Shown piece by piece: positions 1-23,700 of a stretch of 32,924 nucleotides of DNA. The notes below the pieces were generated by a model. That model was not told the DNA's origin. It saw only the letters and a list, made by a program, of their open reading frames with translations, and ran no database searches. Position 1 is the stretch's first letter; every line of letters starts with the position of its first letter. The translations under genes and the position numbers were made by a program. This stretch comes from Candidatus Monoglobus merdigallinarum (GTDB lineage Bacteria > Bacillota > Clostridia > Monoglobales > Monoglobaceae). The stretch is taken from positions 1 to 32,924 of the forward strand of contig DXIJ01000005.1 of the NCBI GenBank assembly GCA_019112945.1, written 5' to 3'.

Positions 1-182
1 CTTGCTTTACTGTTTCTACCTCAATTACATAATATCAGAATGTTACTAATTTGTCAATACTTTAATTTAAAAATACTGCCGGAAATTTCACTGCGGAATT
101 TCAGCTATTCCACACATTCAATCCGAATAACACACAAAAAAGCAATCTCAGCTGCGCCGGGACTTTGATGTATTTTTTGCAT

Positions 183-222
183 AAAAAAGATAACCCCGGT
201 TTAGCCATGTTGGGGTTATCTT
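183..222 (-). terminator. Intrinsic terminator of small-RNA copy 1
   Basis: A perfect 11-bp inverted repeat (187-197 with 212-222) has a 14-base loop and six A on the plus strand at 183-188, which is a U-run in the minus-strand transcript. Confidence 0.8.
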
Positions 223-266
223 AAAACACCTATATTGGCATAACCGTTTAAAGGTTTGCCTTTTCT
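183..266 (-). ncRNA. Predicted small RNA, copy 1 (about 84 nt)
   Basis: The RNA would run from the perfect promoter to an intrinsic terminator. It has two hairpins. The 5' hairpin at 237-260 is a 24-base element (GGCA...UGCC and AACC...GGUU stems) matched in length and position by copies 2 and 3. The 3' hairpin is an 11-bp perfect stem (AAGATAACCCC with GGGGTTATCTT) followed by a run of U, a classical terminator. Copies 2 and 3 keep the layout but have different stem sequences. No convergent peptide gene is recognisable on the plus strand next to this copy. The family is not one I recognise; expression is inferred from promoter and terminator only. Confidence 0.6.
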
Positions 267-272
267 ATACTT

Positions 273-301
273 ATTATACCTCAGTTTTTGCTAAATGTCA
301 A
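273..301 (-). promoter_or_regulatory. Perfect consensus sigma-A promoter of small-RNA copy 1
   Basis: On the minus strand, TTGACA (296-301), a 17-base spacer and TATAAT (273-278) match the housekeeping promoter consensus at all 12 positions. The predicted start is near 266. No open reading frame with a ribosome-binding site follows. An intrinsic terminator lies about 70 bases downstream, so a short untranslated RNA is the natural product. Confidence 0.75.
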
Positions 302-9978: not shown

Positions 9979-12921
9979 ATGAGAAAGTATATCATCACGG
10001 TTATTTCAATAATACTGACGCTCTGTGCGTTTTCGGCAACGGGCGCGGCGGAGAGCTCTCTGCCCGCATTCCCCGGCGCGGAGGGCGGCGGAAAATACAC
10101 AGAGGGCGCAAGAGCAGGCGGCGCGGCCAGCGTCTATCATGTCACCAATCTAAACGCAAGCGGCGAGGGCTCCTTTGCGGATGCGGTATCGGAGCCAAAC
10201 CGCATAATCGTGTTTGACGTGGGCGGAGTTATCGATATGAAGGGCGATTCGCTCAGAATATCCGCCGACAATCTGACGATACTCGGCCAGACCGCGCCCG
10301 GGGACGGGATCACGATAACGGGCGGAGACCTTTTGCTTAACAATCAGGTCGAGCAGATAATTTTAAGATATATCCGCGTGAGGCCGACGGACAAATACGG
10401 CGGCGAGCCCGACGGCATAGGCGGCAGATGGAACAACCATATAATCATCGACCACTGCAGCACAAGCTGGGGCGTTGACGAGCTGCTGACGCTTTATGCG
10501 GGCTCAAGCGAAGACAGGACGCAGGGCGCAAACCTCACCGTTCAGAACACTATCGCCTCGGAAAGCCTTAAGATGTCCAACCACTTCAAGGGCTCTCACG
10601 GCTACGGCGCGATATGGGGAGCCACAAATTCCACCTGGCGCCTCAATCTGCTTGCTCATCACGACAGCAGAAGTCCGCGCCTTGACCGCGAGCTTCAAAA
10701 GACGGATATCAGAAACAATTGTTTCTACAACTGGGGGCTTAACAATTCCGCATACGGAGGCGAAGCATACTCCTACAATAACCAAACCCAAAACGGAACA
10801 TATGTAAACTGGGTGAACAACTACTATAAATACGGCCCCGGAACAAGCGCAAACAAGCGCAGCCGTATCTTTCAGTTCTCCGCTCCAAACGGCGGTGAAT
10901 CTCAGTTTTATGTAAACGGCAACTATGTGTACGGGTACGAGAGCGTGACGAATGACAACACTCTGGGGCTTGTTGACCCGGGGTATGTGACGCTTCTCGG
11001 CAGCGAGATTGATATGGGCGAGTATGCACTCCCGCACATGACCGCGGAGGAGGCATACGCGGAAGTACTCAAAAACGCGGGCGCAACGCTCCCGAGGCGC
11101 GACGCTATAGATGCAAGGATAATCGCGGATGTTAAAAATCAGACAGGCCGCATTATCAATAGTGCGGACGAAGTCGGCGGAGTGATAAATTCCGAGACCG
11201 TGACAAGGGTGTTTGAGATACCCTCTGATTGGAAAGAGGAACACGGCATGGGAAGCGCAAAAGAGACCGATATAGTAAACAGCGGCGAGTTTAAAGGCTA
11301 TACCTGGATAGAAGCGTATGTGAACGACCTGACAGAAGCACAGCCGGACCCGGCAAATCCATCAGTCATCGTCACATACCCGGCTATTCAGGCATTAAGC
11401 GACACCATAGACGGCGAGACGGTCACAAACGAAAACTGGCTCGTGCTGAGCGAGGGCGAGAGCTTTAACTACAAGGCCGCCGTCAAAGCCCAAAGCGGGA
11501 CAGAGCTTTCAAGAATCAAAATTTACGACGGCAGCGAGCTTATAGATACTATTAACGGCCTGAGCGGCGAGAGCTATACCCTAAACCGCGAGGTAACACT
11601 CAATCCGGGCACGCACTATATGACGCTGAGGGTCTATAACGACAGAGGCGAGGCGACCCAAAGCCCGACCTCTATAGTATATGTCAAAGGGGAGCAGGAG
11701 AGCACGGCAGGATTTTCACATGCTCAAATCGGCAGCACGCCGTTCGGCGAAAAAGGCGGCTCGTGGTACGGCAGCGGAACATATCATATCTTCGGCAGCG
11801 GCAAGATCACCTCTACCACCAATACATCCGACAACTCCTCGGGCAGCACCCAAGACAGCTGTGACTTTATGTATTGCCGCGTTTCGGGCGATTTTGACAT
11901 CACGGTAGAGGTCGAGCAGGTTCCCAAGAACGAGAACGGGGCCGTCTGCGGGATAATGATGAGGGAGAGTCTGGATTCCGGTTCAAGAATGGCTTTTCTT
12001 GCGGACGGCTGGCTGAAATACGGCGAAAATGTAAAAGTCATAAGCAGAACCGAAACCGACAGGCGCGGAAGAGTGAAATATTTTGAAGACGGCAGGGGCA
12101 ATTCAATCGACAACAGCAGCGACTACGACACAAGCAAGGACGAATACAAACTGCCCAAATACCTGAGAATGCAGAGGACGGGCGACACTCTGACATTTTC
12201 GGTCTCAAACAGCGGCGCTGACTTTTCAGACAACGCAAGGCAGCCGCTCAGCATAAACTTTTCGGGGCTCAGTGACACGGTATACTTAGGGCTTGCCGCG
12301 GATTCATGCGAGGGTACGCCAATGAAAGATTTTATGTCCGAAGCAGTGTTCAGCAGCCTGAGCATAACCGGCACGGCCGCCCCCGAGCCAATACCGACTG
12401 CTACGCCAACGCCAACGCCTACAGCAACACCAACCGCAACGCCTACAGCAACACCAACGCCCACAGCTACACCAACGCCAACACCGACTGCAACGCCAAC
12501 GCCTACAGCAACGCCAACGCCAACACCTACCGCAACACCAACACCCACGCCTACGCTAACAGCAACACCGACCGCTACACCAACGCCAACACCGACTGCA
12601 ACACCGACTTTGGCACCTACGCCTACGCCTACATTAAGACCCGGGGTATATTATGACAAAGCCCCGGCGACTGATGGAAGCGCGGTTACAGCAACGGCGG
12701 TCAACAACAGCTCCGGCCGTGCAGCAGTGATAATATGCGTATACGAGCAAGACACCGAGATACTCAGCGAGATATTTATTGAGCCTATTGAGCCGGGTGA
12801 AGTGAAGCATATCGAAAAGGATATCGGCAATACCGGCAAGCCTGTAAAGGTCATGCTATGGGATGAGAATATGTCTCCCGTGTGTACGCCGTCAGTTTTC
12901 GGCGCTGCGCAGGAGGCATAG
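9979..12921 (+). CDS. Secreted multidomain pectate lyase (PL1-like)
   Basis: An extracellular enzyme expected to cleave polygalacturonate by beta-elimination. The 980-residue protein begins with a signal peptide ([26 protein letters not shown]). The right-handed beta-helix lyase domain spans about residues 28-400, with the family opening [31 protein letters not shown] and [10 protein letters not shown], and [12 protein letters not shown] in the active-site region. An Ig-like region (about 465-570) is followed by a concanavalin-like or carbohydrate-binding-like domain (about 575-800), a threonine/proline linker (about 805-887) and a C-terminal module of about 90 residues. No LPXTG, SLH or dockerin motif was seen, so it is probably secreted free or bound through an unrecognised module. 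GGAGG precedes the ATG. The family assignment is from motif recall; precise activity is inferred. Confidence 0.88.
12394..12640 (+). repeat. In-gene tandem repeat encoding a Thr-Pro linker
   Basis: About 245 bases of six-base-like units (CAACGCCAACGCCTACAGCA and variants) encode alternating TPTP and TATP. Low-complexity linkers of this type join domains in secreted glycan-degrading enzymes and are often O-glycosylated. The DNA repeat is prone to copy-number change; since most units are six bases, length changes would usually keep frame. Confidence 0.9.
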
Positions 12922-19186: not shown

Positions 19187-19834
19187 ATGGAAAAACAACA
19201 AGTTTTAAAAAAGATGACCGATGCGGGTCTTGTTGCGGTCGTACGCGCAAGCAGCGCCGAAGAGGCTATCAGGATCTCTGACGCCTGCCTGGAGGGCGGC
19301 TGCCCCTCAATCGAGCTGACATTTACGGTCCCCGGCGCTCATAAGGTCATTGAAGCTCTTGCGGCTAAATACTCAAACGGCGAAATGCTGCTGGGCGCAG
19401 GCACGGTGCTTGATTCCGAAACAGCAAGACAGGCTATCCTGTCCGGCGCTAACTTTATCGTAAGCCCCGGCTTCAACGCGGGCGCAGCAAAGCTCTGTAA
19501 CCGCTATGCAGTGCCGTATATGCCCGGTACAATGACGTTTACAGAAATCCTGACGGCTATGGAAGCAGGTGCTGATATCTGCAAGGTATTCCCCGGAGAT
19601 ATCGTAGGCCCCAACTTCATCAAGGACGTAAAGGGTCCCCTGCCGCAGGCTAAGCTCATGCCCACGGGCGGCGTTGACGTCGGCAATGTCGACAAGTGGA
19701 TAAAGGCGGGCGCAGTTGCCGTCGGCGCGGGTTCATCGCTCACAAAGGGCGCAAAGACGGGCGACTATGCAGCTATCACGGCTACCGCAAAAGAATTTAT
19801 TGCAAAAATTAAAGAGACTCGTGCATCGCTCTGA
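19187..19834 (+). CDS. eda: 2-keto-3-deoxy-6-phosphogluconate (KDPG/KHG) aldolase
   Basis: Cleaves KDPG to pyruvate and glyceraldehyde-3-phosphate, the last step of pectin-derived uronate breakdown and of the Entner-Doudoroff pathway. The 215-residue TIM barrel has the Schiff-base lysine in ICKVFPG (Lys133), the catalytic glutamate in IELTF (Glu43), GAGTVLD and the phosphate-binding PTGGV and GAGSSL loops. GGAGG stands just before the ATG. kdgK follows after about 60 bases, so the two steps from 2-keto-3-deoxygluconate are encoded together. No uronate isomerase or dehydratase genes are in the window. Confidence 0.93.
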   Translation: MEKQQVLKKMTDAGLVAVVRASSAEEAIRISDACLEGGCPSIELTFTVPGAHKVIEALAAKYSNGEMLLGAGTVLDSETARQAILSGANFIVSPGFNAGAAKLCNRYAVPYMPGTMTFTEILTAMEAGADICKVFPGDIVGPNFIKDVKGPLPQAKLMPTGGVDVGNVDKWIKAGAVAVGAGSSLTKGAKTGDYAAITATAKEFIAKIKETRASL

Positions 19835-19893
19835 TTGATGCACGCTCCGCTTAGGCGGACTTAGATTATACATAGTTAAAAGGAGATAAAAAA

Positions 19894-20925
19894 ATGGCAA
19901 AAGTTGTTACAATGGGCGAAATCATGCTCAGATTATCCACACCGGGTAATGAAAAATTTATTCAGGCTGATGAATTTGACGTATGCTACGGCGGCGGTGA
20001 AGCAAACGTAGCGGTATCGCTTGCAAACTACGGTCATGACGCTGAATTTGTTACCGCTGTTCCCGACAATCCGATCGGAGAATGCGCTGTCGCAGCGCTC
20101 CGCAAGATGAATGTCAAGACCGATAACATCGCAAAATGCGGCGAAAGGCTTGGTATATACTTCCTGGAGACAGGCGCTTCGATGAGGGCTTCAAACGTCG
20201 TTTATGACAGGGCTCATTCTTCGATCTCTACGGCTACGGCTGCCGACTTTGATTTTGACAAAATCTTTGACGGCGCAGACTGGTTCCACTTCACAGGTAT
20301 CACTCCTGCTGTTTCGGACGCTGCCGCAGAGCTCACAGAGGCTGCTCTTAAGGCTGCAAAGGCTAAGGGCGTTAAGGTCTCGGTCGACCTCAACTTCCGC
20401 AAGAAGCTGTGGTCAAGCGAAAAGGCTCAGAAGATCATGACAAACCTCATGCAGTATGTTGACGTCTGCATCGGCAACGAGGAGGACGCTGAAAAGGTTC
20501 TCGGCTTCAAGCCGGGCGCAACGGATGTTACAAGCGGTGACCTTGAGCTCGCCGGCTATGAGGACATCTTCAAGCAGATGGTTGACAAATTTAACTTTGA
20601 GTACGTTATAAGCTCGCTCAGAGTAAGCCACTCGGCGTCTGACAACGGCTGGTCGGCTTGTATCTACTCAAGAGACACAAAGGAATTTTATCATTCCAAG
20701 GAATACAGCATTCATCCCATTGTTGACCGCGTAGGCGGCGGCGATTCTTTTGCCGGCGGTACAATCTGCGGCTTCCTCGATGGAAAGAACTTTAAGGACG
20801 CTTTGGAATTCGGTGTTGCAGCTTCGGCTCTCAAGCACACTATCCCCGGCGACTTTAACCTTGTTTCACGCGCTGACGTTGAGAACCTCGTCGGCGGAGA
20901 CGGCAGCGGCCGTGTTCAGAGATAA
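19894..20925 (+). CDS. kdgK: 2-keto-3-deoxygluconate kinase
   Basis: Phosphorylates 2-keto-3-deoxygluconate to KDPG, the substrate of the adjacent Eda. The 343-residue PfkB-family sugar kinase opens with MAKVVTMGEIMLRLS, has the GGGEANVA substrate-binding loop near residue 33 and the ATP/anion-hole motif DRVGGGDSFAGG with the catalytic aspartate (about residue 283). The pairing with eda supports KDG as substrate rather than fructose or ribose. AGGAG precedes the ATG. A hairpin terminator follows. Confidence 0.9.
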   Translation: MAKVVTMGEIMLRLSTPGNEKFIQADEFDVCYGGGEANVAVSLANYGHDAEFVTAVPDNPIGECAVAALRKMNVKTDNIAKCGERLGIYFLETGASMRASNVVYDRAHSSISTATAADFDFDKIFDGADWFHFTGITPAVSDAAAELTEAALKAAKAKGVKVSVDLNFRKKLWSSEKAQKIMTNLMQYVDVCIGNEEDAEKVLGFKPGATDVTSGDLELAGYEDIFKQMVDKFNFEYVISSLRVSHSASDNGWSACIYSRDTKEFYHSKEYSIHPIVDRVGGGDSFAGGTICGFLDGKNFKDALEFGVAASALKHTIPGDFNLVSRADVENLVGGDGSGRVQR

Positions 20926-21068: not shown

Positions 21069-21157
21069 AAAAGCAATATAGCCGCCCATCTGGCCAAAGG
21101 GACGGCTATAAATTCATGTTCTTTTGGCTAACCTAACTTTAGGGTTGCCTTTTATCT
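21069..21157 (-). ncRNA. Predicted small RNA, copy 2 (about 89 nt)
   Basis: Same plan as copies 1 and 3: start region GCAGATAAAAGG, a 24-base hairpin (21126-21149), and a 3' terminator stem (TATAGCCG at 21077-21084 with CGGCTATA at 21103-21110) followed by GCTTTTATGG. On the opposite strand, a 16-codon ORF (21034-21081) ends in the same residues (IKAI-stop) as the peptide next to copy 3 but has no ribosome-binding site, so this copy looks like an antitoxin-like RNA with a decayed partner. Confidence 0.6.
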
Positions 21158-21393
21158 GCTTTTATTATATATTTTTTTCTTAAATTTGTCAAGGACGTTT
21201 GTTTTCTTAAATTGGGTTTTAAGTTATCGAATTTTTATTTCAGCCTCTCCCTCGCCTGCGTCAAAGCAAGCTGCGCTTGTTCGTTTTTGCTCAAAGAGCA
21301 AAAAGCTCACCCGCTGCGCTGCTTTTCCTTTCAAACAAAAGTCCGCTGCGCCGGGACTTTTGTTTGGTTAAGTCTTTGCAAGCCTGCCGAAGT
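21122..21393. repeat. 270-bp direct repeat, first copy
   Basis: Nearly identical to 22175-22444. The identity covers the small-RNA 5' hairpin, promoter and about 200 bases upstream of the promoter, including the CAAACAAAAGTCC hairpin. The copies differ by substitutions and a 5-base length difference in the GCCTC region, which argues against a shared reading frame. Recombination between them would delete the peptide locus. Confidence 0.8.
21164..21192 (-). promoter_or_regulatory. Perfect consensus promoter of small-RNA copy 2
   Basis: On the minus strand, TTGACA (21187-21192), a 17-base spacer and TATAAT (21164-21169) match consensus at every position. The predicted start is near 21157. Confidence 0.75.
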
Positions 21394-21472
21394 TTGCACC
21401 AACCAAAATTGTTATTTGGTTAGATAACTATCACACGCCTGTATACTCAACACTTTGCTAAAGGTGCTGACC

Positions 21473-21622: not shown

Positions 21623-21932
21623 CACTTATCCGAAAGTTTTTAGGATAAACTCAATATTTGACTGAGAACAAACCCGTCACGTCCTAATCCCTGCGTCGGA
21701 GCGAGAGCGTCGCATAGAATATTTTAAGTTGCTTATACTATCTGCCCATTTCCGCGCCTGCGCACCTCCGCGCTCACTCCGTTCGCCTGCCGATGTTTGC
21801 ATTAACCAAAAATGTTATTTGGTTAGATAACTATCCCACGCCTGCATACTCAACACTTTGCCGAGTATAAACCCGCCCAAGTCCTATTCTCTATTCGCTA
21901 ATCTCTAATCCCTACGTTCCTACGTTCCTACG

Positions 21933-21961
21933 TTGACATAATATATCATTTATTGTATAAT
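21933..21961 (+). promoter_or_regulatory. Perfect consensus promoter of the peptide gene
   Basis: TTGACA (21933-21938), a 17-base spacer and TATAAT (21956-21961) match the housekeeping consensus fully. The predicted start is near 21968, giving a leader of about 75 bases. The -35 element lies across the end of a repeat tail (ACGTTG), so the repeat contributes half of it. Confidence 0.75.
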
Positions 21962-22000
21962 ATTGTCAGCAGATAAACAGGTAATTGAAGGACGGTTAGC

Positions 22001-22036
22001 CATCTCCTGCGCTGCGGCTGCAGCAGAAAGGAGGTG
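22001..22036 (+). promoter_or_regulatory. Stem-loop that would hide the peptide ribosome-binding site
   Basis: CATCTCCT (22001-22008) pairs with AGGAGGTG (22029-22036) over 8 bp including one G-U, and an inner stem GCTGC (22011-22015) with GCAGC (22020-22024) closes the loop. AGGAGGTG is the ribosome-binding site of the peptide, six bases before its ATG. Such sequestration is a known feature of type I toxin messengers. The folding is by eye, not calculated. Confidence 0.6.
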
Positions 22037-22042
22037 TCGCTT

Positions 22043-22117
22043 ATGTGGAACACAATAATTAAGTTTATTGTATCTATTATACTTATTTATATGATAGTGT
22101 CCATAAAAGCAATATAG
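22043..22117 (+). CDS. 24-residue hydrophobic peptide, candidate type I toxin
   Basis: The ORF is too short for the supplied track: MWNTIIKFIVSIILIYMIVSIKAI. It is nearly all hydrophobic with one lysine near each end, long enough for a single membrane helix. It has an exceptionally good ribosome-binding site (AAAGGAGGTG, six bases before ATG) and a perfect upstream promoter. The final codons and stop lie inside a hairpin (22111-22148) that also terminates an opposite-strand RNA. Small membrane-active peptides with an antisense RNA sharing the terminator are the plan of known type I toxin-antitoxin loci such as Fst/par and TxpA/RatA. Sequence similarity to those peptides is not evident. A leader peptide or chance ORF is the alternative. 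Confidence 0.6.
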   Translation: MWNTIIKFIVSIILIYMIVSIKAI

Positions 22118-22210
22118 CCGTTCCTCCGGTCAAGGAAATGGCTATATTATTAATTATTAATTATTAATATACCTTTTTGGCTAACCTAACTTTAGGTTTA
22201 CCTTTTATCT
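22105..22210 (-). ncRNA. Predicted antisense small RNA, copy 3 (about 106 nt)
   Basis: Convergent to the peptide gene. It has the GCAGATAAAAGG start, the 24-base hairpin (22179-22202), an AT-rich insertion of TTAATTA repeats absent from the other copies, and a terminator stem (AATATAGCC at 22111-22119 with GGCTATATT at 22140-22148, plus TTCCT with AGGAA inside) followed by GCTTTTATGG. Its 3' end is antisense to the last four or so codons of the peptide and to the messenger's 3' untranslated region. The role as antitoxin is inference. Confidence 0.6.
22111..22148. terminator. Shared terminator hairpin of peptide gene and small RNA
   Basis: The 9-bp outer stem (AATATAGCC/GGCTATATT) plus inner TTCCT/AGGAA spans the peptide stop codon. 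The minus-strand side is followed by GCTTTTATGG. The plus-strand side is AT-rich (ATTAATTATT) rather than a clean T-run, so termination in that direction is less sure. Confidence 0.6.
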
Positions 22211-22444
22211 GCTTTTATTATATATTTTTTTCTTAAATTTGTCAAGGTCTTTTGTTTTCTTAAATTGGGTTTTAAGTTATCGAATTTTTATTTCAGCCTC
22301 TGCCTACGTCAAAGCAAGCTCCGCTTGTTCGTTTTTGCTCAAAGAGCAAAAAGCTCACCCACTGCGCTGCTTTTCCTTTCAAACAAAAGTCCGCTGCGCC
22401 GGGACTTTTGTTTGGTTAAGCAAGCCTTGCCTACCGAAGTTTGC
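22175..22444. repeat. 270-bp direct repeat, second copy (part of R3)
   Basis: Counterpart of 21122-21393. It continues into a GTTTGCA-plus-hairpin module (22451-22464) and a tail ending in CCCTACGTTGG (22503-22541). The tail reads into the 3' end of the ABC permease gene. No credible gene was found in 22118-22518. Confidence 0.8.
22217..22245 (-). promoter_or_regulatory. Perfect consensus promoter of small-RNA copy 3
   Basis: On the minus strand, TTGACA (22240-22245), 17 bases and TATAAT (22217-22222) match consensus fully and face the peptide gene. The predicted start is near 22210. Confidence 0.75.
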
Positions 22445-22518
22445 AGAACACCTTAATTTTAAGGCGTAGAAAAAACTTTACCGAGAGTAAGCCCGTCACA
22501 CGCCCTAATACCTATTCC

Positions 22519-23700
22519 CTAATCTCTAATCCCTACGTTGGCGGCTGTCTCCCGCAAAGCAGGGTATATACCGGCAAGTGCGGCAAAGACCGCCGAGAAC
22601 AGCACCGGCAGCAGCACTGCGGGTATCAAAAACCAATCTATGATCACGCCGACGCCGCTTATCATGCACACTGCGGCGCCGATACCGACCCCTATAAGCG
22701 CACCGGCCAGCGAACCGAAAAATGCGCACAGCACGCATACAAATTCCTTTTTCAAAAACGCTGCCGTCTTAGTATGCCCGCGCGGGAGCTTCTCCCTGCT
22801 TGACGGGTACAGCGCAAACATCATAAGCATAAGCCCGCTTATAACCAAAAGCGCGGCAAAAATTCCCAGAACTGTCATGTTATAAGAACTTCCGCCCTCG
22901 GTCAAATTCAGGCTGAATTCCGTACTGCGCGAAATATCCGAGACATATTTAAAAATATCGTCATACGCCCTGCCGGGACTTGTGACCGAAAATATGTATT
23001 CGGTTATGTTGTTTGAGTTCATAAGCAGCCGCGCGCTCGTGTACGGGATCACCGCCAGGCTCCCGGGGCTGTAGCCGGAGCTGCCCGTCATAACGCCTTT
23101 GACGGTGAATATGCGCCCGCCGAGCCTTATCTCCTGCCCCACGGGGTCGGCTTCTCCGAAAACAGAATCTGCAAGCTCACGGCTTATGACCGCCTCCGCT
23201 CTCCTTGCGTTTGTATCAGCCGCCGTGAACCCCTCGCCGCCCGCAAAATCAACGGGTGCGTTCTCAAAAAATGTCTCGTCGGACGCCAGCACGGCGCAGC
23301 CCGCCGCCGTGCTTCCGGCGGAGGCTTCGATATTTTCGATCCGCTGTGCCGGAGTGACCGCTCTTACATATTCACTTTCAAGCTCTCTTAATGCGCCGAT
23401 ATCTATTCCCGAATCCGCACTTCCGAGGCTCAGGGCAATACTGCCCAAGCCATACGGGTTTTTGCTGTAGCCCGCAGCGGTATCGCTTGAGCGCTGCCAC
23501 AGCAGATATGATGAAATAACCGCCAGGGCAACAACAAAGCCCAGCGCGGCTATAAGCGCCTGGGTCTTGTTTTTCTTTATTTCCGAAACGGCCGCGGCAG
23601 ACGCAGCCCTGAGACTGCCGCCCCGCCGTATTTTTACCGTTTCGCTTAAATTTTCATTCGCTTTACTTTTAAATCTCATCGCTAACTTCCTGATAATCAT
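22519..23700 (-). CDS. MacB/FtsX-type ABC transporter permease, C-terminus altered by repeat
   Basis: A 393-residue membrane protein. One membrane segment (about 47-68) is followed by a large extracytoplasmic MacB-like domain (REAELADSV-type region EAVISRELADSVFGEADPVGQEIRLGG is covered in part by the motif VISRELADSVFG) and three C-terminal membrane segments ending in FAALAGIYPALRETAA. MacB relatives continue YPA...A..DP..ALR at this point; here the last residues NVGIRD and the stop are encoded by the repeat tail. The start may instead be the ATG at 23677-23679 (AGGAAG precedes it). It follows the adaptor gene by 21 bases, fitting an adaptor-permease exporter. No ATPase gene is present on either side. 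Confidence 0.82.
   Translation of the reverse strand: MIIRKLAMRFKSKANENLSETVKIRRGGSLRAASAAAVSEIKKNKTQALIAALGFVVALAVISSYLLWQRSSDTAAGYSKNPYGLGSIALSLGSADSGIDIGALRELESEYVRAVTPAQRIENIEASAGSTAAGCAVLASDETFFENAPVDFAGGEGFTAADTNARRAEAVISRELADSVFGEADPVGQEIRLGGRIFTVKGVMTGSSGYSPGSLAVIPYTSARLLMNSNNITEYIFSVTSPGRAYDDIFKYVSDISRSTEFSLNLTEGGSSYNMTVLGIFAALLVISGLMLMMFALYPSSREKLPRGHTKTAAFLKKEFVCVLCAFFGSLAGALIGVGIGAAVCMISGVGVIIDWFLIPAVLLPVLFSAVFAALAGIYPALRETAANVGIRD

Follow-up and report, generated by a model that had tools for sequence, protein, structure and literature searches.

In par/Fst of pAD1 (RNA I / RNA II), which belongs to the Fst/Ldr family, the promoters are convergent, the toxin is a small membrane peptide and a terminator hairpin lies in the overlap of the two RNAs. 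The Shine-Dalgarno (SD) sequence of the toxin mRNA is held in a stem-loop, and contact between the RNAs begins at the terminator loops (PMC7472228). TxpA/RatA and BsrG/SR4 of Bacillus subtilis also have convergent genes, with a large 3' overlap of toxin mRNA and antisense RNA. 3'-overlapping toxin/antisense loci such as TxpA/RatA are silenced through RNase III (PMC3531473). In hok/Sok and aapA/IsoA, the full-length toxin mRNA is closed by long-distance pairing of its 5' and 3' ends and stays stable and silent until the 3' end is trimmed, and SD-sequestering hairpins block ribosomes (PMC6733600). Validated type I systems in Clostridia were limited to C. difficile according to a 2019 review, and searches that started from known toxins found little elsewhere in Clostridia (PMC6563280).

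The window analyzed here, a stretch of 32,924 nucleotides from Candidatus Monoglobus merdigallinarum, holds a locus that quite likely belongs to a type I toxin-antitoxin family not described before, which is chromosomal and multi-copy and joins the layout of par/Fst to an end clamp like that of hok and AapA. The first-pass annotation had proposed a candidate type I locus with the convergent layout and overlapping 3' ends of Fst/par and TxpA/RatA. The toxin-antitoxin reading is supported by a conserved peptide frame, by the co-occurrence of peptide and RNA, and by the lack of a match to a known toxin family. The convergent layout also stands, but the overlap appears to comprise the whole antitoxin and to extend beyond the 3' hairpin.

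With par/Fst, the locus shares the convergent promoters, a small, putatively membrane-bound peptide, a terminator hairpin in the overlap and a stem-loop predicted to sequester the SD of the toxin mRNA. The Fst signature (P/D/S/TxxxG and a charged C-terminal tail) is absent from our peptide alignments, and the Fst/Ldr direct repeats DRa/DRb, which render the antitoxin complementary to the toxin initiation region, were not encountered in the present modules. A likeness to Fst in the RNA-RNA contacts was therefore not borne out, as there is no direct-repeat complementarity to the 5' UTR. The energy of pairing between antitoxin and 5' UTR was hardly different for cognate (-24.6) and non-cognate partners (-23.9; P 0.12), and the longest perfect runs in the modules printed were 4-8 nt. 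In addition, unlike in par, transcription of the present toxin gene appears to continue beyond the mid hairpin, and the two ends of the RNA appear to pair with each other.

The convergent genes and the large 3' overlap of toxin mRNA and antisense RNA are common to TxpA/RatA, BsrG/SR4 and the present module. The module is smaller than these, its antitoxin leader doubles as a clamp strand, and the TxpA and BsrG peptides are unrelated to the present ones (no Pfam or NCBIfam match). No Rfam family matched the window at gathering level; the best below-threshold score over the toxin transcript was that of BsrG, at 22.3 bits against a gathering cut-off of 55. Predicted 5'-3' closure of the full-length toxin mRNA and SD-sequestering hairpins are shared with hok/Sok and aapA/IsoA. 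In those two systems, as far as we know, the 3' end of the toxin mRNA is not made up by the antisense gene. Unlike in hok and AapA, one stretch of the present locus would serve as antitoxin leader, as toxin 3' clamp strand and probably as toxin terminator. An end clamp is a known device; from a keyword search of the literature, we know of no description of one whose 3' strand is the antitoxin's own leader. The Clostridioides difficile modules, CD2517.1-RCd8, CD0956.2-RCd10 and others, encode toxins of 34-59 residues with charged C-termini (PMC6563280). The present peptides have 19-25 residues and, judging by the descriptions of the C. difficile modules, we noticed no relation to them. By its layout, the module is a type I system; it lacks the Fst motif and direct repeats and is therefore not Fst, and no model places it with BsrG/TxpA.

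Facing promoters and a candidate toxin peptide

Both perfect promoters that had been described as facing each other are present, with their -10 hexamers about 255 bases apart, and so are the peptide ORF and the SD six bases ahead of its ATG (Table 1). No ORF of note was found on the minus strand, in agreement with an RNA that encodes nothing, and the stem of the hairpin said to overlap the peptide stop codon includes the TAG (22115-22117). Four perfect 12/12 sigma-70 promoters with spacers of 16-18 occur in the window, against 0.017 expected from dinucleotide-shuffled copies. All four lie in copies of the same element, three of them within 1.1 kb, and the third and fourth (21192 and 301) sit in orphan antitoxin-like copies of it. 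Across modules, the -35 hexamer is mostly TTGACA in antitoxin arms and mostly TTGACT or TTGACG in toxin arms.

Table 1. Features of the locus and of its orphan copies, in positions of the window
Feature	Position	Strand	Remarks
Toxin promoter, TTGACA-17-TATAAT	21933..21961	+	kept as TTGAC(A/T/G)-17-TATAAT in nearly all modules
Toxin mRNA 5' leader, clamp 5' strand (GCAGATAAACAGGTAATTGAAGGACGGTTAGCC)	21969..22001	+	predicted to pair with 22179-22212 of the same transcript
Anti-Shine-Dalgarno, CATCTCCT	22001..22008	+	predicted to pair with 22029-22036
Shine-Dalgarno, AAAGGAGGTG	22027..22036	+	perfect; six bases before ATG
Toxin-candidate ORF, MWNTIIKFIVSIILIYMIVSIKAI, 24 aa	22043..22117	+	homologues and purifying selection
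Antitoxin RNA, about 115 nt	22098..22212	-	ends deduced from promoter and terminator positions; wholly antisense to the toxin mRNA 3' part
Antitoxin terminator U-tract (GCUUUUAU)	22103..22110	-	opposite C-terminal Ile-Lys-Ala codons
Mid hairpin, antitoxin terminator stem-loop over the toxin stop codon	22111..22148	-	fold, U-tract and covariation
Antitoxin 5' leader (GCAGATAAAAGGTAAACCTAAAGTTAGGTTAGCC)	22179..22212	-	its complement forms the clamp 3' strand in the toxin mRNA; variation coupled to that of the module's own toxin leader
Toxin mRNA 3' end, hairpin then U-rich tract (CCTTTTATCTGCTTTTATTATA)	22179..22222	+	probable toxin terminator in the window
Antitoxin promoter, TTGACA-17-TATAAT	22217..22245	-	perfect consensus, read from sequence
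Orphan antitoxin-like copy 1	21070..21192	-	has lost its toxin ORF but keeps a perfect promoter, a leader and a terminator
Orphan antitoxin-like copy 2	176..301	-	perfect promoter, leader AGAAAAGGCAAACC..GGTTATGCC, strong terminator, no toxin ORF

Homologues share 46-88% identity with the window peptide. In these loci the frame is conserved, and so are the length of the peptide, the SD and the surroundings of the start codon. Over 20 type A coding sequences (MWNTILKVIVSIIIFFIIVSIKAI-like peptides), pN/pS is 0.48 with high synonymous change, and the differences at codon positions 1, 2 and 3 number 1224, 560 and 1616. Judged by these substitutions, the peptide is under purifying selection. The family peptides are hydrophobic, single-helix and 19-25 residues long, and they carry few charged residues relative to many type I toxins, which counts against a toxin reading. 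The earlier impression that the peptide belongs to no known toxin family proved right, with no Pfam, NCBIfam or PHROGs model above cut-off. For the module as a whole, no model of Pfam, NCBIfam, PHROGs or Rfam passes threshold. Subthreshold scores came from a single homologue only, for NCBIfam smalltalk (15.2 bits against a cut-off of 24.7) and Pfam DUF6486 (14.1 against 22.7), and a literature keyword search for peptide strings gave no match. We infer toxicity of the peptide and its repression by the RNA.

Ends of the two transcripts

The mid hairpin had been taken as the end of both RNAs. This fits the antitoxin strand, on which the hairpin is followed by a good U-tract. Compensatory changes occur in 4 of 6 tested pairs of this helix (helix 5), and the antitoxin RNA folds with z -3.8 to -4.2. 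In the window, the AAA codon of the conserved C-terminal Lys is the complement of part of the antitoxin U-tract, and in a tandem array of five modules (L041) the tract lies opposite Lys-Lys codons (CTTTTTTATTG). On the toxin strand the hairpin does not appear to be the end, as covariation points to a transcript reaching ~22212-22222. The toxin strand past the hairpin has little or no U in several modules, and 0-1/8 in the L041 array.

The modules share convergent promoters with Fst. As to the shared bidirectional terminator of Fst, the mid hairpin carries its U-tract on the antitoxin strand, and several modules have few or no U on the other. Bidirectional termination at this hairpin is not favored, given few U on the toxin-strand tails in several of 16 modules, a set that includes one (L045) with the wrong hairpin assigned. 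In 4 of 5 L041 modules, a far hairpin followed by CCTTTTATCT resembles a terminator when read on the toxin strand. With little toxin-strand U at the mid hairpin and a terminator-like far hairpin, the likeliest 3' end of the toxin mRNA (~250 nt) lies close to where the antitoxin begins, at ~22212-22222, so that the antitoxin would be fully nested within it as antisense.

A predicted end-to-end clamp and Shine-Dalgarno hairpin

The same leader, GCAGATAAAAGG..GGTTAGCC, stands behind each promoter, all but identical in the toxin mRNA and the antitoxin RNA. Identical leaders in inverted orientation would be complementary inside one toxin transcript that reaches the antitoxin start, and the mRNA would therefore be clamped end to end, a feature that the first-pass annotation had missed. 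The full toxin transcript folds at -91.8 kcal/mol, compared with -54.1 when shuffled (z -8.3), and a shorter transcript ending at the mid hairpin gives z -4.4. Clamp duplexes average -37.8 kcal/mol for cognate and -29.7 for non-cognate strands. Given no more than the alignment of 28 modules, RNAalifold predicted all three elements (clamp, SD hairpin and mid hairpin), and 17 of the 32 pairs show double compensatory changes. When run on just the leader it found no pairs, the conserved pairing lying with the far end; because of this, our leader model, R1 (42 positions), is sequence-only.

The structure that we named was drawn from the window sequence, which favors it over slid versions; it is 88.8% paired, against 40-51% when slid. 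Its covariation score is 0.266 against 0.176 for shuffled alignments (0/500), with 68 double-change cells against 26 in the shuffles. In the clamp helix, compensatory changes run from A-U to G-C, from G-C to U-A and from C-G to A-U at columns 34, 35 and 37. An independent set of 19 loci, found by their peptide alone, has the variant leader AAAGGYAAGAC..GGTTATGCC; 5'-3' pairing is found in 19/19, with 21.9 expected clamp pairs compared with 8.1 for a shuffled tail. Assuming that the transcript reaches the far end, pairing between the 5' and 3' ends of the toxin mRNA is conserved.

In a further difference from hok/Sok and aapA/IsoA, the predicted clamp is positioned outside the SD helix, and neither of its strands pairs with the SD. 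In the minimum-energy fold, the anti-SD/SD stem has 8 bp, of which 7 bp are left once the clamp forms, and the computed probability that the window SD is unpaired is 0.01. The mean over modules is 0.16, against 0.42 with a shuffled upstream leader, and the value is lower in 27 of 29 modules. Double changes occur in 4 of 7 pairs of this hairpin (helix 4), and pairing is kept despite altered stem sequence. Tandem duplicates of SD/anti-SD hairpins are seen upstream of the ORF in L043, L044, L047, L023, L036, L056, L072 and L073. The leaders of L047 (type A peptide) and L044 (MKLFF type) are nearly the same, which suggests leader or ORF exchange between modules.

Leaders match within modules

R1 scores 36-39 bits on both window arms, which are themselves part of the model. 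Leader variants change in both arms of the same module: GGTTGTCA in L015, L032 and L039, GGTTAGCC in most of the L041 array, GGTTATCC in L050, GGTATA in L022 and L024, GGGCAAG in L089, L079, L068 and L090, GATGAYAGG in L077, and GGTTGCCC in L075. In a set of 32 modules, leaders resemble their cognate partners more closely than partners assigned by permutation (z 10.5). Permutation within genomes gives P 0.0001, or 0.0005 with near-duplicates removed; these values are indicative, because the rows were chosen and trimmed by eye and the modules are of common ancestry, so that counts are not independent. No within-module coupling was seen, again over 32 modules, for the promoter spacers (P 0.37; within genome, 0.13) or for the 20 nt downstream of the leader (P 0.69; within genome, 0.98).

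The shared leader might be the site for a common regulator of both genes, either a protein on RNA or a DNA operator, with the clamp as a by-product. The leader comes immediately after the promoter in either arm, and a palindrome (AACCGTTAAACGGTT) lies within the antitoxin leader. However, leaders differ between paralogous modules of one genome and match within the module, which a single trans-acting factor would not produce, and the changes in the clamp helix are compensatory. We regard a common regulator as improbable and prefer the clamp. Direct pairing of the antitoxin with the toxin leader was rejected as the cause of the shared leader (cognate -19.2, non-cognate -19.6).

Gene conversion could in principle keep inverted homologous ends, and the L041 module at 1261-1499 has the same insertion in both arms; conversion of whole arms is not favored, as the flanks are uncoupled. 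This insertion, in the second module of the array (L041 1200-1600; G004:C1:2362499-2362899), is roughly 60 nt or longer (...GAACCCGCAAGCAAGCTTGCTGATT...) and sits at the same place after AGCA in each arm, parting promoter from leader. It may reflect either arm-to-arm copying or site-specific repeat insertion.

A model of how the toxin mRNA may be kept silent

The sequence supports a toxin mRNA of ~250 nt for a hydrophobic single-helix peptide of 22-24 residues. The complementary, co-varying 5' leader and 3' end of this mRNA would close the transcript on itself, while an upstream anti-SD would hold the SD in a separate hairpin. A convergent RNA of ~115 nt, driven by a consensus promoter, would be wholly antisense to the 3' part of this mRNA. 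Its leader is the complement of the clamp 3' strand, and the U-tract of its terminator is encoded by the same bases as the toxin's C-terminal lysines. Newly made toxin mRNA would be stable yet translationally silent, as in hok and AapA, and would become open through unfolding or through slow trimming of its 3' end. The antitoxin would pair with the toxin 3' UTR and the duplex would pass to RNase III, as in txpA/RatA. If the antitoxin were lost or outrun, the peptide would be translated, insert into the membrane and stop growth.

We lean slightly toward the further proposal that a single sequence of ~35 bp does three jobs, as antitoxin leader, toxin terminator and clamp 3' strand, which would make the module a distinct type I class. 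Sharing this sequence would force the antitoxin and toxin leaders to evolve together, and the clamp and loops would determine specificity among paralogous modules. The C-terminal lysines would be kept partly because their AAA codons are the antitoxin terminator U-tract, and orphan antitoxins may act in trans. The covarying end clamp lends itself to a genetic test of the construction of silent toxin mRNAs, with single mutations and compensating ones, and the module description may serve as a model for annotating such loci.

Family members and distribution

About 30 distinct modules were studied in detail. The genome of the window (a 1.5-Mb, 74%-complete assembly) contains two further intact modules, L002 with peptide MWNTITKFIVSIILIYIIVSIKAV and L003 with peptide MWNTILKVIVAIVIFFIIVSIKAI, the latter 74% identical in DNA across the portion that matched. 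Single arms occur there as well. The five-module L041 array, in a single-contig relative (G004), has the second peptide type, MEYVYIIIFMIVFITLIESIKK. By DNA search, 18 of 38 genomes of the GTDB family have matches, a count that takes in the genome of the window, and a peptide-pattern scan of named genomes found three uncultured Monoglobus sp. and one Eubacteriales MAG. R1 arms occur in 25 of 51 order genomes at E <= 0.01. At E <= 5e-4, 21 of the 391 genomes sampled from the class have them, families outside the order included. By peptide-alignment search alone, the type A peptide is found in 14 of the 51 order genomes, two of which (G049 and G050) appear only at E 0.02-0.04. The type B peptide (M[DEG]NEYIISFMIILLLLVISIKK-like) is found in 46 of the 391 class genomes at E <= 0.05, and in 30 at E < 1e-3. 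None of the databases searched covers this multi-copy family, with its two main peptide types across Clostridia, apparently owing to the small size of the ORFs (19-25 codons).

Several copies per genome with inverted homologous arms, some of them decayed and sited among dispersed intergenic repeats, would also be expected of a MITE-like selfish repeat, in which promoters lie by chance in terminal inverted repeats and the ORF is a passenger. However, the arms match in promoter hexamers and leader only, with spacers and downstream sequence unlike within a module. Module copies have diverged (about 74-87%), the peptide frame is under purifying selection, and the SD and its hairpin are conserved. 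In addition, no module was found in viral contigs, phages or plasmids at the sensitivity used, although peptides this short can escape such searches, as they can when low-complexity filters are on. A selfish repeat is thus very hard to credit, and we retain the toxin-antitoxin reading.

Peptide and RNA co-occur, a point that the first-pass annotation had proposed to check: of the type A loci retrieved with only the peptide as query, 28 of 28 have an antitoxin arm, judged by eye for L130 and for L105-L107, whose scores were weak. Conversely, arms of the antitoxin that lack a toxin are found twice in the window and in L034 and L035. Orphan copy 1 lies 1 kb from the intact module and retains only a C-terminal ...VFTIKAI remnant on the + strand. 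Tandem arrays and broken toxin ORFs next to intact RNA arms are seen among L041, L031 and L045. Antitoxin-only loci but no toxin-only type A loci were found, an asymmetry expected if the peptide is harmful. In L031 (G017), the toxin C-terminus is rewritten and extended to 42 aa, and in L045 (G017) the toxin is frameshifted and truncated to 16 aa; both promoters and leaders are intact in each.

Alternatively, the peptide may be a small regulator in the membrane that is not toxic and acts, for instance, on a protease or transporter, with its dose tuned by the antisense RNA. Non-toxic membrane peptides of similar size exist, the present peptides are short single helices, and their toxicity is a deduction. 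Many paralogues per genome and tandem arrays nevertheless fit a dangerous product better. The toxin is never seen without an antitoxin arm, and decay affects the toxin only. Moreover, translation would be doubly silenced, by the SD hairpin and the clamp, and no consistent neighbor gene was noticed in an unsystematic look. We therefore think a non-toxic regulator unlikely and a toxin the better reading.

Dispersed intergenic repeats occur in the window at 21122-21372 / 22175-22420 and at 21382-21458 / 21785-21861, and CCTAATCCCTACGTT tracts at about 600-780, 21684-21932 and 22499-22541. The repeats include a quasi-tandem CCTAATCYCTA / CCTACGTT motif, and they adjoin several modules and are also found elsewhere in the window. 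By eye, a large ORF at 9979-12921 (+) is of the secreted pectate-lyase type with a long Thr-Pro-Ala (TPTPTATPT) linker, and ORFs at 19187-20925 are KDPG aldolase- and KDG kinase-like. These likenesses fit a pectin degrader such as Monoglobus.
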